Origin: Burkholderia pyrrocinia
Lineage (GTDB): Bacteria > Pseudomonadota > Gammaproteobacteria > Burkholderiales > Burkholderiaceae
NCBI RefSeq assembly: GCF_003330765.1
Contig: NZ_CP024903.1
Coordinates: 1,736,001-1,800,000, forward strand
Direction: 5' to 3'
DNA length: 64,000 nucleotides
The position numbers and the translations under genes are program-made. Position 1 is the stretch's first letter; each line of letters begins with the position of its first letter. The notes beneath the pieces were generated by a model. It saw only the letters and a program-made list of their open reading frames with translations, had not been told where the DNA came from and ran no database searches. This document shows positions 15,543-20,450 of the stretch, one piece after another.

Positions 15543-15839
15543 TCAGGCCGGCACCAGCTCGAAGCTGAGTCGTTTGCCGAGCGCGGCGGCCGCGCTCGCG
15601 AGTGTCGCCAGCGTGAGGCTCGTGTCGGTTTCGTCGAGCAGCCGGTTGAGCGCGGCACGGCTGGTTTTCATCCGTGCGGCCATCGCGGTTTTCGTGATGT
15701 GCTGCGCCTTCATTTCCTGCCCGATCTGCCACGCGATCACGCGCTTGATCGCGGTGGCGGTGGCCGCTTCGAGATTGCCGTCCTCTTCGAGGAAGGTATC
15801 GAAGTCGCTGCCGATATGCGGGTTGTTCGTGGTCGTCAT
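15543..15839 (-). CDS. HTH antitoxin (HigA/XRE-like)
   Basis: A 98-residue protein with an XRE-type helix-turn-helix in its second half (MKAQHITKTAMAARM through SRAALNRLLD). This matches the short antitoxins encoded behind Gp49/HigB-type toxins. It lies 73 bases downstream of the toxin gene on the same strand, the toxin-first order typical of higBA. It is expected to bind and neutralise the toxin and to repress the shared promoter through the inverted repeat at 16286-16307. No separate ribosome binding site of note. Confidence 0.8.
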   Translation of the reverse strand: MTTTNNPHIGSDFDTFLEEDGNLEAATATAIKRVIAWQIGQEMKAQHITKTAMAARMKTSRAALNRLLDETDTSLTLATLASAAAALGKRLSFELVPA

Positions 15840-15912
15840 GTCGTACTCCAGTGCATGGCGTTGCCGGCGGCCCGACCGTCGGAGACGGTGCGTTCCGGCG
15901 CAACCGGGAAAT

Positions 15913-16272
15913 TCAGATGGCGTGCGTCAGCGCTTTCAGGCGCGCGACGGTGACGTCGAGATCGTCCGACGGCGTGGCCCGCGACTGCTTGAAGAAGCCG
16001 TGCAGCAGGACCATCGTGTCGCCGACGACCGTGAACAGCACGCGGGCGCTTCGCCCCGGCAGCATCACGCGGATCTCCCACAGATCCTTCGCCATCTTCC
16101 GGACCAGCGGCATGCCGAGCGGCCAGCCGAGTTGAACGGTCTTGATCTCTTCGCCGATCACTCTTCGCTCCGCTTGCCCGAGCGCCCTGAGCCATTCGCG
16201 CACCGGCTCGTTGCCACGGGCCGTCCGGAAGAACCGGACGCCGAGCGTGACCTGAATCTGCTGTCTCGCCAT
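15913..16272 (-). CDS. RelE/HigB-type toxin (phage Gp49-like)
   Basis: A 119-residue basic protein with the Gp49/HigB-like fold signature: VREWLRALGQAERRVIGEEI, then MAKDLWEIRVMLPGRSARVLF, then VVLLHGFFKQS-like strand and C-terminal helix. Members are ribosome-dependent mRNA interferases. The start at 16272 is preferred because the frame upstream runs into the promoter and operator. It forms a two-gene unit with the HTH protein at 15543. Confidence 0.8.
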   Translation of the reverse strand: MARQQIQVTLGVRFFRTARGNEPVREWLRALGQAERRVIGEEIKTVQLGWPLGMPLVRKMAKDLWEIRVMLPGRSARVLFTVVGDTMVLLHGFFKQSRATPSDDLDVTVARLKALTHAI

Positions 16273-16399: not shown

Positions 16400-17386
16400 T
16401 CAACGATCGCCGCGAGCCGGCTTGCGCGCGGCGCGTGGCGTCCGGTGCGGGCGCGTGTCGCCGAACCGCGACCGCGCGATGTCGCGCACGGCATCGATCA
16501 GCGTCCGCGCGACCGGCGACGGCTGCGCATCGGTGCGCAGGACGAGCCCGACCGGTTCGTCGGTGCCCGCGGACGGCAGCGGCAGGCGCGCCAGCGCACC
16601 GGCCGACAGATCGTATTCGGCCGCATAGAGCGGCACGAACCAGACCGCGTCGTTCTCGAGCGCCAGCGCGCGCGCGACCGATACCGACAGCACTTCGATG
16701 AACGAATCCAGCGGCGGCACGCCGCATGCGCCGAGCAGTTGCTCGGCCGACTGGCGGATCAGCGTGCCGAACGGCGGCAGCACGACCGGATAGCGCGCGA
16801 GCTCGGTGGCCGGCGCCGCGCTCGCCAGCAGCGGATGCCCGGCGCGCACGACCGCAACGAGCGGCTCGTTGTACAACTGCTCGAACGCGAGCCCGATCAT
16901 CCGCTCCGGCTCCGACAGCCGCCCGATCGCGCATTCGATCGCGCCGGACTTCAGGCGCTCGAGCAGGTCGGCGTTCGCAGCCGTCGCGATCCGTACGACG
17001 ATGCGCGGCCAGCGGGCGGCCAGTGCCTTCATCAACGCGGGTGCGAGCGATGCCGCGACGGTCGGCAGCATGCCGATTTCCAGCGTCGCGGCGGCGGCCC
17101 CGCCCTCGCGCGCGAGCAGCCCGACGCCCTGCCGCAGCGCCAGCACGCACGCGTTCGCGTGCGGCATGAACAACTGCGCTTCGCGGGTCGGCTGCGCGCC
17201 CTGCCGGCCGCGCTCGAACAGTTTCACGCCGAGGATCGCCTCCAGTTCGGCGATCGTCTTCGAGACGGCCGGCTGCGTGATCGACAGGCTTTCGGCCGCC
17301 TTCTGCACGCCGCCCAACTGCGCGACCGCGAGAAAACACTGCAGGTGCCGGAACTTGACGCGACCGTCGGCGATACGATTATTCAT
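16400..17386 (-). CDS. pcaQ: LysR-type activator of protocatechuate genes (PcaQ)
   Basis: A 328-residue LysR regulator with an N-terminal winged helix (FRHLQCFLAVAQLGGVQKAAE, then SITQPAVSKTIAELE) and a periplasmic-binding-protein-like effector domain. The sequence is PcaQ/GbpR-like, and the pcaHG genes lie 1.7 kb away facing the other direction. PcaQ responds to beta-carboxy-cis,cis-muconate. Its start codon overlaps a palindrome ATAAC-N5-GTTAT that is repeated upstream of pcaH, so it should repress itself and activate pcaHG. The direct pcaQ-pcaH divergent neighbourhood seen in relatives is interrupted here by two unrelated genes. Confidence 0.85.
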   Translation of the reverse strand: MNNRIADGRVKFRHLQCFLAVAQLGGVQKAAESLSITQPAVSKTIAELEAILGVKLFERGRQGAQPTREAQLFMPHANACVLALRQGVGLLAREGGAAAATLEIGMLPTVAASLAPALMKALAARWPRIVVRIATAANADLLERLKSGAIECAIGRLSEPERMIGLAFEQLYNEPLVAVVRAGHPLLASAAPATELARYPVVLPPFGTLIRQSAEQLLGACGVPPLDSFIEVLSVSVARALALENDAVWFVPLYAAEYDLSAGALARLPLPSAGTDEPVGLVLRTDAQPSPVARTLIDAVRDIARSRFGDTRPHRTPRAARKPARGDR

Positions 17387-17399
17387 AACGGGCGGTTAT
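17385..17399. promoter_or_regulatory. PcaQ operator at the pcaQ start codon
   Basis: ATAACGGGCGGTTAT, a LysR T-N11-A palindrome, overlapping the pcaQ ATG. An identical arrangement (ATAACGAACGGTTAT) precedes pcaH. Confidence 0.75.
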
Positions 17400-17418
17400 G
17401 CGAGTGTCGATGAAATGC

Positions 17419-17441
17419 CATTTTGCATAACTTTCCGGATT
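17419..17441 (+). promoter_or_regulatory. Orphan copy of the pcaHG core promoter block
   Basis: A 23-bp block beginning CATTTTGCATAAC and ending TTCCGGATT is identical to the one at 19073-19095. It lies at exactly the same offset (34 bases) from its PcaQ palindrome. It points rightward, but the next gene (17448) runs leftward and the -10 (TAAAGT) found in the functional copy is absent. It therefore looks like a broken relic of the pcaHG promoter. Confidence 0.7.
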
Positions 17442-17447
17442 CCCGCG

Positions 17448-18185
17448 TCACACATCGCGCCGCAACGCGTGGAAACCCGTCGGCTCCCAGACCCGCTTCG
17501 CGATCAACAGCCCCGTCCCGCGCTTCTGCCCGAGCGGTGCGGACGACGATTCCGCGTGCAGCGCAGCCGCCTTGCTGCGCAGCCGGCGCAACTCCAGTTC
17601 GAGTTCCGCGGCGGCGGCTTCCGTCAGCATCCCCTGCGAAAACGTCATCGTTTCTCCCGGCCCGTCGAAACGGCTGTCGAGAAAATCGCCAAGCGCATGT
17701 TCGTGGAAATAACGGCGAATCGGCCCGCCCGGCAGCCAGTCGAAATCGCGCGCGACGCGCAGGCGAATCCGGTCGCCCGGCAGCAGCGCAACGACGTTCA
17801 TCCGGTCGAGCATCAGCAGGTATTTCACGCACTCGGCCTTCGTCACGCGATAGGCCGACACGATGTCCTGCACGGTCCAGTAATTGATCGCGCAAACGGC
17901 GACGAGCAGCAGCTTCTCGTCCGACACGAGCAGCGCCTCCTGCGGCTCGGTCAGCACGCGCAGCCGCGGCGCCGACGCGGACGCCTCCTGCACGAGCTCG
18001 GCCAGCGTGTAGCCGAGCAATTGCGCGATCTCGACGATGCGCTCCAGCGTGAAGCGGCCGCTCGCGAACAGCCGCTTCACGCTGGTCTCGGACACGTCGA
18101 GTGCACCCGCGACATCGCGGTAGGTCATTCCCTGCGCCTTCAACTGGCGCTTCAGCGTTTCGATGAGTTGGGCGGTCTCGGTCAT
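17448..18185 (-). CDS. XRE-family HTH regulator with long C-terminal domain
   Basis: A 245-residue protein. An XRE helix-turn-helix fills residues 10-65 (MTYRDVAGALDVSETSVKRLF, then LERIVEIAQLLGYTL). The remaining 170 residues have a helix-rich domain (SDEKLLLVAVCAINYWTVQDI) and a charged C-terminal tail. This two-part layout is common in proteobacterial regulators of unknown ligand. Its stop lies 7 bases from the orphan pca promoter block. It is divergent from the papain-like gene at 18307, which it may control. Confidence 0.75.
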   Translation of the reverse strand: MTETAQLIETLKRQLKAQGMTYRDVAGALDVSETSVKRLFASGRFTLERIVEIAQLLGYTLAELVQEASASAPRLRVLTEPQEALLVSDEKLLLVAVCAINYWTVQDIVSAYRVTKAECVKYLLMLDRMNVVALLPGDRIRLRVARDFDWLPGGPIRRYFHEHALGDFLDSRFDGPGETMTFSQGMLTEAAAAELELELRRLRSKAAALHAESSSAPLGQKRGTGLLIAKRVWEPTGFHALRRDV

Positions 18186-18306
18186 TTTGGTATCGAAAAA
18201 TGATGCTCAAGGTCAGATATTAGGCTACCAGCACATGCAGATGAACACTTTCGGATACTTGTCTGCATAATCCGCTCCGTCCTGTCCACACAACGACGGA
18301 GCCGAA

Positions 18307-18873
18307 ATGGCCCCCCGAACCGAAGCCGCCGCCTACGAACCGCACCACACCGCACCGCGCGATGCACGCGATACGGATCGCACGATGCCGCTCGCGACCG
18401 TTCGCACGCTGGCCGCCGGCGCGCATGTCGGCGATCTGGTGTTCATCCGCGTGATTGCGCATGCGCCGCGCGACGCGGCGGGCCCGGCGGGCGCGTGGGC
18501 CAATCGCTTCGGCATCGTCGTCGATACGTCGGGCGACGAACCCGTGATCGCCGAGCCCGCGTTTGCGTGGACGAAGCTCACGCCGCTGTCGCGCTTCGTC
18601 ACCCGTACCGACGGCGGACGCATCGCGCTGGCGCGCCGCGTCGCGGCACCGACCGTCGACGCGCAGCGCCAGGTTCAGGCGACGGCCGAACAGCGGATCG
18701 ACGCACTGCTCGGCAACCGCTTCAACCTGCGGGCGCGGCGCGGGTTCTGCGCGCAGTACGTGAGCGACGTGCTCGGCGCCGATCGGGCCGCGACACCGGC
18801 CGCCCTGCTGCGCAGCGGCACGCTGTCGCTCGAATTCGACGGGATCGTGTTCGATCCTGGCCGTCAGTCATAA
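18307..18873 (+). CDS. Permuted papain-like (YebB/YiiX, NlpC/P60-type) protein
   Basis: A 188-residue protein with the layout of circularly permuted NlpC/P60 enzymes: AHVGDLVFIRV, then NRFGIVVDTSGDEPVIAEPA, and late RRGFCAQYVSDVLGA holding the candidate catalytic Cys. In relatives a His stands just before the GIVV strand; here the position reads Asn-Arg, so the usual dyad may be broken or the activity changed. No signal peptide. Relatives are thought to act on peptides, amides or lipids; function is unproven. It is divergent from the XRE regulator and followed by a strong terminator. Confidence 0.6.
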   Translation: MAPRTEAAAYEPHHTAPRDARDTDRTMPLATVRTLAAGAHVGDLVFIRVIAHAPRDAAGPAGAWANRFGIVVDTSGDEPVIAEPAFAWTKLTPLSRFVTRTDGGRIALARRVAAPTVDAQRQVQATAEQRIDALLGNRFNLRARRGFCAQYVSDVLGADRAATPAALLRSGTLSLEFDGIVFDPGRQS

Positions 18874-18988
18874 CGGGCGCTCAGGGAGACCGGATAACAA
18901 CAAGAACAAACGACAAAAAAGCAGCGACGGGCTGGCTGGAGGGCCGTGCACGGGGTCGTCACCGACGACGCGAAGCCCGATCGCTTTC

Positions 18989-19023
18989 TCCGCCGGACAG
19001 GCATCCTGTCCGGCGGAATTTTC
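18989..19023 (+). terminator. Terminator after the papain-like gene
   Basis: Perfect 13-bp arms TCCGCCGGACAGG / CCTGTCCGGCGGA with a 3-base loop, followed by ATTTTC. It isolates this gene from the pcaHG promoter that begins 16 bases later. Confidence 0.75.
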
Positions 19024-19038
19024 ATTGGTGAGATGAAC

Positions 19039-19104
19039 ATAACGAACGGTTATACGTCTCGCGAAAAAAGGTCATTTTGCATAACTTTCCGGATTGGCTA
19101 AAGT
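19039..19104 (+). promoter_or_regulatory. PcaQ-activated promoter of pcaHG
   Basis: The PcaQ palindrome ATAACGAACGGTTAT (19039-19053) is followed by -35 TTGCAT (19077-19082), a 16-bp spacer and -10 TAAAGT (19099-19104). The palindrome is centred about 65 bases before the expected transcription start, the classical position of a LysR recognition site. The weak -35 fits an activator-dependent promoter. Confidence 0.75.
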
Positions 19105-19145: not shown

Positions 19146-19853
19146 ATGGATTCCCCCACGATCCTCACCCCGCGCGACTGGCCGTCGCATCCGGCCTATG
19201 TCCACCCCGAGTACCGTTCGTCCGTGAAGCGCGGCCCGACCCGCCCGTTGATCCCGCTGAAGGACAAGCTGCGCGACCAGTACGCGCCCGTCTACGGCGC
19301 TGAGGATCTCGGCGCGCTCGACCACGACCTGACGAAGAACGCCGTGAAGAACGGCGAGCCGCTCGGCGAGCGCATCGTCGTCACGGGCCGCGTGCTCGAC
19401 GAAGGCGGCAAGCCCGTGCGCAACACGCTCGTCGAGGTGTGGCAGGCGAACGCGGCCGGCCGCTATGTGCACAAGGTCGATCAGCACGACGCGCCGCTCG
19501 ACCCGAACTTCCTCGGCGCGGGGCGCTGCATGACCGACGACAAAGGCTGCTACCGCTTCCTGACGATCAAGCCCGGCGCGTATCCGTGGGGCAACCATCC
19601 GAACGCGTGGCGCCCAAATCACATCCACTTCTCGCTGTTCGGCGACTACTTCGGCTCGCGTCTCGTCACGCAGATGTACTTCCCCGGCGACCCGCTGCTC
19701 GCGTACGACCCGATCTTCCAGGGCACGCCCGAGGCCGCGCGCGATCGCCTGGTCTCGCGCTTCTCGATGGACATCACCGAAGAAGGCTATGCGCTCGGCT
19801 ACGAATTCGACATCGTGCTGCGCGGCCGCGACGCTACCCCGATGGAGCGCTGA
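19146..19853 (+). CDS. pcaH: Protocatechuate 3,4-dioxygenase beta subunit
   Basis: A 235-residue intradiol dioxygenase beta chain. With PcaG it opens protocatechuate between the hydroxyls to give beta-carboxy-cis,cis-muconate in the beta-ketoadipate pathway. The four Fe(III) ligands are visible: Tyr107 (GRYVH), Tyr146 (GAYPW), and His159 and His161 (NHIHFS). AGGAG precedes the ATG at 19146; the frame is open slightly upstream but that would remove the leader. The stop is 3 bases before pcaG. The other pca genes are not in this window. Confidence 0.96.
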   Translation: MDSPTILTPRDWPSHPAYVHPEYRSSVKRGPTRPLIPLKDKLRDQYAPVYGAEDLGALDHDLTKNAVKNGEPLGERIVVTGRVLDEGGKPVRNTLVEVWQANAAGRYVHKVDQHDAPLDPNFLGAGRCMTDDKGCYRFLTIKPGAYPWGNHPNAWRPNHIHFSLFGDYFGSRLVTQMYFPGDPLLAYDPIFQGTPEAARDRLVSRFSMDITEEGYALGYEFDIVLRGRDATPMER

Positions 19854-19856
19854 ACC

Positions 19857-20450
19857 ATGACGACGCTGAAGCAAACCCCTTCGCAGACGGTCGGCCCGTA
19901 CTTCGCATACGGCCTGTGCCCGCAGCAATACGACTACGACCTGAAGAGCCTGTTCACGCCGACGATCGCCGCGACGCACGTCGAAGGCGAGCATGTGCTG
20001 CTGGTCGGGCAGGTGTTCGACGGCGACGGCAAGGTCGTCAACGACGCGGTGCTCGAATTCACGCAGGTGGACGGCGCGGGCCGCTACCCCGCGTCGCGCG
20101 ACGACATCGCGAAATCCGGCTTCACGGGCTTCGCGCGGGTCGGCACGGGCACCGATGCGCAGCACCGCTTCGTCGTCGAAACGGTGAAGCCGGGCCGCAT
20201 CGCCGCCGACGACGCGCCGCACATCAATGTGACCGTGATGATGCGCGGGATCCTCACCCATGCGTTCACGCGCGTGTACTTCGATGACGAAGCCGCCGCG
20301 AACGCGGCCGACCCCGTGCTCAACGCGGTGCCGGCCGAGCGCCGCGCGACGCTCGTCGCGAAACGCGACGCGCAGCCGGGCCGTCCGATCGTCTACCGCT
20401 TCGACATCCGCATGCAGGGGCCGGACGAAACGGTGTTCTTCGACGTGTGA
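19857..20450 (+). CDS. pcaG: Protocatechuate 3,4-dioxygenase alpha subunit
   Basis: A 197-residue alpha chain, with QTVGPYFAYGL near its start and the HINVTVMMRGILTHAFTRVYF strand pair of the family. It lacks the full Fe ligand set, as expected for the non-catalytic subunit. It is co-transcribed with pcaH and closed by a strong intrinsic terminator. Confidence 0.95.
   Translation: MTTLKQTPSQTVGPYFAYGLCPQQYDYDLKSLFTPTIAATHVEGEHVLLVGQVFDGDGKVVNDAVLEFTQVDGAGRYPASRDDIAKSGFTGFARVGTGTDAQHRFVVETVKPGRIAADDAPHINVTVMMRGILTHAFTRVYFDDEAAANAADPVLNAVPAERRATLVAKRDAQPGRPIVYRFDIRMQGPDETVFFDV

Follow-up and report, generated by a model that had tools for sequence, protein, structure and literature searches.

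An overlapping pcaQ/pcaHG promoter of Burkholderia that appears to have been split once by an XRE-C92 gene pair and kept in two copies

In bacteria a regulator gene and its target are often arranged divergently with overlapping promoters, and the reason why the overlap persists is difficult to establish. Regions of this kind governed by LysR-type regulators contain an upstream palindrome, a weaker site near the -35 and a divergent regulator gene, and autorepression is expected (general knowledge; accessible part of PMC5002191). For PcaQ, the LysR-type activator of the protocatechuate genes, the consensus in the Burkholderiales is ATAAC-N5-GTTAT, and in Paraburkholderia (Burkholderia) xenovorans LB400 the divergent region between pcaQ and pcaHG has one PcaQ module (both according to the accessible part of PMC3572157). 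Here we describe the pcaQ-pcaHG locus of Burkholderia pyrrocinia in a stretch of 64,000 nucleotides (contig NZ_CP024903.1, positions 1,736,001 to 1,800,000), called the window below. Compared to LB400 it has two modules, placed around a pair of genes coding for an XRE regulator and a C92 protein, and the left module is without the pcaHG -10. Unlike the LysR-type regions just mentioned, the shared region is physically split, and regulator and target have no common overlapping promoter. Our search of the open-access literature turned up neither a doubled PcaQ module nor a split pcaQ-pcaHG promoter for Burkholderia. Comparison of the sequences leads us to conclude firmly that there was one split, that both copies were kept, that the left copy is constrained and that its -10 was lost.

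A module consists of the operator ATAAC-N5-GTTAT, 23 bases, and then TTGCATAAC, 38 bp from the operator start. The two modules in the window are found at 17385-17431 and 19039-19085 in the same orientation, 1654 bp apart, within an ungapped direct repeat of 58 nt with 81% identity (17384-17441 and 19038-19095). A preliminary description of this DNA had correctly noted that operator and promoter block are doubled at equal spacing, both 23-mers starting 34 bases past the operator start, and that the modules enclose an XRE regulator gene and a papain-like gene. It had also called the operators identical, which they are not: the arms are alike and the five-base spacers differ (GGGCG left, GAACG right). 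The identical block of 23 bp is in fact the shared 20-bp CATTTTGCATAACTTTCCGG, the extra bases being a chance match at a deletion junction in the left copy. With the module defined as 19 fixed bases and at most 3 mismatches allowed, the window contains these two matches only (none in 100 shuffles), and a third module is absent from the 8.0 Mb genome. A third genomic ATAAC-N5-GTTAT (C1:3049717 in the window genome G000; L001, 1501-1515) was considered and rejected as a module, being without a half-site at +38. This exact palindrome is flanked by an MFS-like transporter gene on one side and by another LysR-like gene on the other, both named by eye.

The left operator ATAACGGGCGGTTAT (17385-17399), which fits the consensus in the accessible part of PMC3572157, overlaps the ATG (17386-17384) of pcaQ (16400-17386, minus strand; NCBIfam TIGR02424 TF_pcaQ, 392.5 bits, cut-off 303.8). 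The left CATTTTGCATAACTTTCCGG (17419-17438), kept across 51 two-module genomes, includes the putative half-site (17423-17431) and a predicted leftward pcaQ -10, CAAAAT (17425-17420). XRE and pcaQ are both read leftward and are 61 bases apart, so the left module is the upstream region of pcaQ. The picture of a left copy facing a gene which runs the other way is thereby corrected: the block has the stop of XRE on one side and the start of pcaQ on the other, with the operator over the start codon. On the right side the operator ATAACGAACGGTTAT (19039-19053), recognized from the motif and the direct repeat, is followed by the predicted promoter of pcaHG (19073-19104, plus strand), which includes CATTTTGCATAACTTTCCGG, the half-site (19077-19085), a -35 TTTGCA (19076-19081) and a -10 TAAAGT (19099-19104). 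The left counterpart of this -10 is deleted in the window. Downstream are pcaH (19146-19853, plus strand; TIGR02422) and pcaG (19857-20450, plus strand; TIGR02423), coding for the beta and alpha subunits of protocatechuate 3,4-dioxygenase. The locus thus has both an ATAAC-N5-GTTAT site upstream of pcaHG and a PcaQ-family regulator, as a PcaQ system should, and the recognition site with a phased second site near the -35 that is typical of LysR-type control; from the ATAAC of the operator to that of the half-site there are 42 bp.

Two overlapping sets of relatives were compared. The named pcaQ loci are the best 80 of 103 relatives found, reduced to 79 by excluding one without pcaH (L034); allowing at most 4 mismatches, 50 of them have one module and 29 have two. 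The single-module loci have a pcaQ-pcaH gap of 101-140 bp and at most 1 mismatch per module. The second set consists of 65 genomes of the genus, 64 of which have pcaQ (G057, 82% complete, has none); 13 have one module and 51 have two, and in each of the 51 the left module is at the start of pcaQ. TTGCATAAC is found at operator +38 in 50/51 left copies, 45/51 right copies (the remaining 6 have TTTCATAAC) and 13/13 single copies, and PcaQ presumably uses it as a half-site. In a midpoint-rooted pcaQ+pcaH tree the 51 two-module genomes are monophyletic and the single-module genomes fall outside. Single modules in the outgroups and monophyly of the 51 together indicate a single event that split a divergent promoter in which the pcaQ and pcaHG elements overlapped. 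This bears out the proposal that an ancestral single promoter was split by the gene pair and doubled, and also that the event is old. Sharing of this layout at deep divergence, which had been named as evidence against the split, is seen inside this one clade only.

Both genes of the pair are present in 43 of the 51 two-module genomes. In the 8 others C92 is missing; four of these have no detectable XRE (G013, G020, G024, G060) and four have an XRE fragment (G009, G012, G044, G051), corresponding to about five loss events on a tree with some weak nodes. All 8 retain both modules. The prediction that strains lacking the pair have one merged promoter is consequently right for the outgroups and wrong for these 8 genomes. 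A scan of 299 genomes of the family, 41 of them in the genus, matched the module in 112 at no more than 2 mismatches; among the matches listed, close module pairs occur in this genus only; genus g20 likewise has single perfect modules. Some single observations may be added. In L034 and L169 (G040) no pcaH was found alongside pcaQ, and the single-module -10 of G040 is TAAAGC; L179 (G038) has one in-frame TGA within the pcaQ frame; in G038 and G042 the operator is about 48 bp farther from the pcaQ start.

The extent of the duplication was read from identities to the single copies in five-base bins. For the right copies the identity is 0.31 in the 5 bases before the operator and 1.00 in its first 5, then 0.45-1.00 per bin up to about +75 and at most 0.37 thereafter. 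For the left copies it is 0.78-0.92 per bin from inside pcaQ up to 5 bases before the operator; the match continues to about +54, with 0.59 in the -10 region and 0.26 beyond. According to these boundaries the duplicated stretch is about 67 bp long and reaches from the operator to the -10, and the left and the right flank are each in their ancestral position. Concerted evolution between the modules was considered and rejected: the identity of left and right copies within a genome is 45.14/60 compared to 45.09 after shuffling, and 758 of 2000 shuffles were as high.

Constraint was expressed as Fitch parsimony changes per column in the two-module genomes, the left copy of G000 being excluded due to its deletion, and the yardstick, taken from 246 fourfold-degenerate sites in pcaQ and pcaH, was 3.07 changes per site. 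The first operator arm has 0.40 changes per column in the left and 0.00 in the right copy and the second arm 0.00 in both, with 8.80 and 9.00 in the spacer between them. Bases 15-33 have 6.05 and 2.58, CATT 0.25 and 0.00, TTGCATAAC 0.11 and 0.56, and TTTCCGG 1.57 and 1.14. The five columns preceding the left heptamer CCCAAGC (bases 54-58) have 11.00 changes on the left and 1.40 on the right; in bases 59-65, which are CCCAAGC on the left and the -10 on the right, there are 0.71 and 1.14. In the left copy the arms gave resampling p values of 0.013 and 0.0015, CATT one of 0.017 and TTGCATAAC one of <0.0001. Slow arms, half-site and heptamer next to fast neighbours make the left pattern one of a kept binding site and a kept heptamer, not one of decay.

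The pcaHG -10 is TAAAGT in 12/13 single copies of the genus and in 49/50 named ones; right copies have TAAAGT (47/51) or TACAGT (4/51). In the 51 left copies the same hexamer is CCAAGC in 46, CCAAGT in 2, CAAAGC in 1 and CGAAGC in 1; in the remaining copy, that of the window, it is deleted. Read leftward, CCCAAGC gives TTGGG, a putative pcaQ -35. The best-scoring leftward pair is TTTAGC-17-CAAAAT in 11/13 single copies and, in register with it, TTGGG[N]-17-CAAAAT in 46/51 left copies. Promoters of B. cenocepacia have a -35 TTGCC and a -10 TAnAAT, and their 5' untranslated regions peak at 21-30 nt (accessible part of PMC4603805). TTGGG has 3/5 bases in common with TTGCC, TTTAG has 2/5, and the predicted pcaQ leader of about 27 nt before the ATG (counted by hand) falls inside this peak. 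It is plausible that TTGGG-17-CAAAAT is the pcaQ promoter. The predicted start would put the operator in the pcaQ leader and the half-site on the -10, which fits autorepression as reported for PcaQ of A. tumefaciens (accessible part of PMC12285266).

The model which we propose starts from an ancestor with one compact region between pcaQ and pcaHG, in which the operator would lie over the pcaQ start codon and the second half-site, TTGCATAAC, four helical turns from it. The divergent promoters would overlap fully, the pcaHG -10 TAAAGT lying on the pcaQ -35 (on the complementary strand, TTTAGC). In a single event at the root of a Burkholderia clade, the XRE and C92 genes would have ended up inside this region, with about 67 bp doubled on either side. 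The right copy would have retained the pcaHG promoter. The left copy lost the pcaHG -10 (TAAAGT to CCAAGC) and would have retained a complete PcaQ site and the leftward TTGGG-17-CAAAAT for pcaQ, and PcaQ bound here would repress pcaQ. We consider it probable that the left copy is now the pcaQ promoter under PcaQ control and the right copy the pcaHG promoter; the binding of PcaQ, a promoter reading leftward, repression of pcaQ by its own product and the way of duplication are what we infer from sequence. The preliminary description had held that a genuine leftward pcaQ promoter in the left block would contradict the split; the evidence points to such a promoter, which refines the split model and does not refute it. 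The locus has several features of a subfunctionalised promoter, namely a single ancestral copy, one duplication, complementary loss (the -10 on the left, the place beside pcaQ on the right) and constraint on both copies. A further step is more tentative, and we lean slightly away from it. In the single-copy state the same bases would be both pcaHG -10 and pcaQ -35, and duplication around the insert would have freed the left copy; this may have been an escape from promoter conflict, in which the left copy swapped TTTAG for TTGGG, the rightward promoter was silenced there, and regulator and target came to be tuned independently by twin PcaQ sites.

Several observations weigh against this model. 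In the left copy CCCAAGC has a resampling p of just 0.014, the slowing of TTTCCGG is not significant (0.12), and the fourfold sites of the yardstick are themselves biased in GC-rich genes. CATTTTGCATAAC is conserved in the right copy as well, and this block by itself is thus no proof of a leftward promoter. A generic sigma-70 score (E. coli-type weights) in the leftward direction has a mean of 8.65 in left, 8.90 in right and 9.14 in single copies; as the left copies have not gained, an improved pcaQ -35 there is a suggestion only. A promoter scan of the window reports no such leftward promoter, the -35-like element being deleted there. Several nodes of the tree are weak, and recombination is evident in G010, whose left module and long C92 (locus L153) resemble those of G062 and G063 while its pcaQ+pcaH groups elsewhere on the tree; we take this mismatch as a sign of recombination.

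It should be noted that the left copy of the window is unusual. An alignment with nine near relatives places a 16-bp deletion after CCGGAT (junction 17440-17441), which removed CCCAAGC, and the base following it makes GGATT seem shared, so that the repeat block appears as 23 instead of 20 bp. The 20-bp block CATTTTGCATAACTTTCCGG is itself typical (37/51 left and 42/51 right copies). The window genome is the only one among the 51 without a CCCAAGC-like heptamer in the left copy, and in this strain pcaQ may have a weaker -35 or be expressed by read-through from XRE. With one genome per species compared, we treat the deletion as a strain peculiarity.

Roles other than that of a pcaQ promoter were considered for the left copy. 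The absence of the pcaHG -10 from all 51 left copies and the deletion in the window are what one would expect if the left copy were a decaying and now functionless remnant of the split promoter; against this, the left operator arms and half-site are near-constant while adjacent columns change often, and the copy is also kept in the 8 pair-less genomes, which makes a relic very improbable. The left module might instead serve mainly as a distant second PcaQ site, either a decoy or a loop partner of the right module across XRE-C92. Full PcaQ sites are kept in both modules, and LysR-type regulators are able to act as dimers of dimers (accessible part of PMC5002191). However, the spacing of the modules varies from 171 to about 2220 bp, which means that no fixed geometry is kept, and the conserved CCCAAGC, outside any PcaQ site, is left unexplained; we regard this role as quite improbable. 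There is next to no chance, in our judgement, that the block is conserved for the 3' end of XRE, as a terminator or for antisense control, and not for pcaQ. Its location, where XRE ends and pcaQ begins, suggests this, but the arms and the half-site are kept in the four genomes without detectable XRE (with one operator base off in G060), G013 and G060 have an exact CCCAAGC, G020 and G024 deviate from it at one base, and the window scan gave no terminator-like site at the left block.

How the 67 bp were doubled is a separate matter, where a tandem duplication with a later insertion agrees with the data just as well as a single-crossover integration. The insert does not resemble a transposon: the duplication is about 67 bp, neither XRE nor C92 matches a transposase family, and no inverted-repeat pair bounds the insert among the 25 pairs shown of 29. 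According to another view, compatible with the proposed pcaQ promoter and concerning the duplication only, the XRE and C92 genes brought their own promoter copy, e.g., by integration of a circle through a single crossover, of which direct repeats around the insert are the expected trace (general knowledge). Tandem duplication and later insertion gives the identical layout, however, and no donor locus was found: 17 of 19 non-pca XRE sites were checked (G189 and G215, partial matches, were left out), and no PcaQ module was present in the 6-10 kb around these homologues elsewhere in the family, the best match having 7-8 of 19 bases wrong. Arrival of the pair with a promoter, as had been suggested earlier, is thus unsupported and looks rather unlikely.

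The pair itself consists of an XRE (HTH_3) regulator of 245 aa (17448-18185, minus strand; Pfam PF01381) and a C92 (YiiX/YebB-like) permuted papain-fold protein of a short form (18307-18873, plus strand; Pfam PF05708, 36 bits, cut-off 27). The XRE gene has a median ratio of nonsynonymous to synonymous substitutions (dN/dS) of 0.12 (666 pairs, 37 genomes) and C92 is less conserved (0.36). Of the 43 copies of C92 in the genus, 6 are of a long form of 225 aa with His and Cys sites, in this like the YiiX/YebB proteins of the same Pfam family (2if6, PF05708); for the alignment with E. coli YiiX (2if6) the long C92 of G062 was used. The other 37, including that of the window, are short (185-194 aa) and have Arg replacing the catalytic His. 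A simple pattern finds the Cys-site motif in 34 of these 37. The window protein differs from YiiX/YebB in being 37 residues shorter than the long form and in having no catalytic His, while the Cys is kept; it does not have the His and Cys of an active C92 amidase, and its short form and lost His make it probably inactive as such.

The divergent XRE/C92 intergenic region (18186-18306), presumably with the pair's own promoters, is 120-122 bp in 43 genomes, its consensus contains GTATCgAAAAA and TACTTgTCtGCATAAT, and there is one promoter-like site (18242-18271). Close to the starts of the two genes, TATCGAAA and TTCGGATA form an inverted, imperfect pair, of which only the XRE-side copy is well conserved; this pair is a possible XRE operator. 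XRE homologues (E at most 1e-15) occur in 49 of the 299 family genomes, of which 31 belong to the genus. Of the 17 non-pca loci, 7 have a C92-like neighbour, which is weak in one case, so the pairing is not obligatory, and the surroundings of 8 non-pca loci look mostly unrelated to one another (by eye, without a family search). G003 has, besides the pair at the pca site, a second XRE with 60% identity and a weak C92-like neighbour (L189, C2:567-1298).

Between C92 and the right module there is an intrinsic-terminator-like hairpin of 13 pairs with a T-rich tail (18989-19017, plus strand). The window scan gave 2 such sites compared to 1.9 expected; 43 of the 51 two-module genomes have the hairpin arm TCCGGCGG in the 60 bp that precede the right operator. 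Downstream of pcaQ (15543-16266) are a Gp49-like gene, which we take to be HigB-type, and a small helix-turn-helix gene, likely a toxin-antitoxin pair.

The locus resembles the duplication-degeneration-complementation scheme (subfunctionalisation; general knowledge) in that each copy appears to retain a complementary part of the ancestral task. It departs from that scheme in that the duplicated unit was not a gene but a piece of about 67 bp from a bidirectional promoter in a bacterium. With 51 split genomes beside 13 unsplit relatives of the same genus, the uncoupling of a LysR-type regulator from its target can be compared using matched natural promoters. The locus also indicates that a short promoter duplication can outlast the gene insert which accompanied it.

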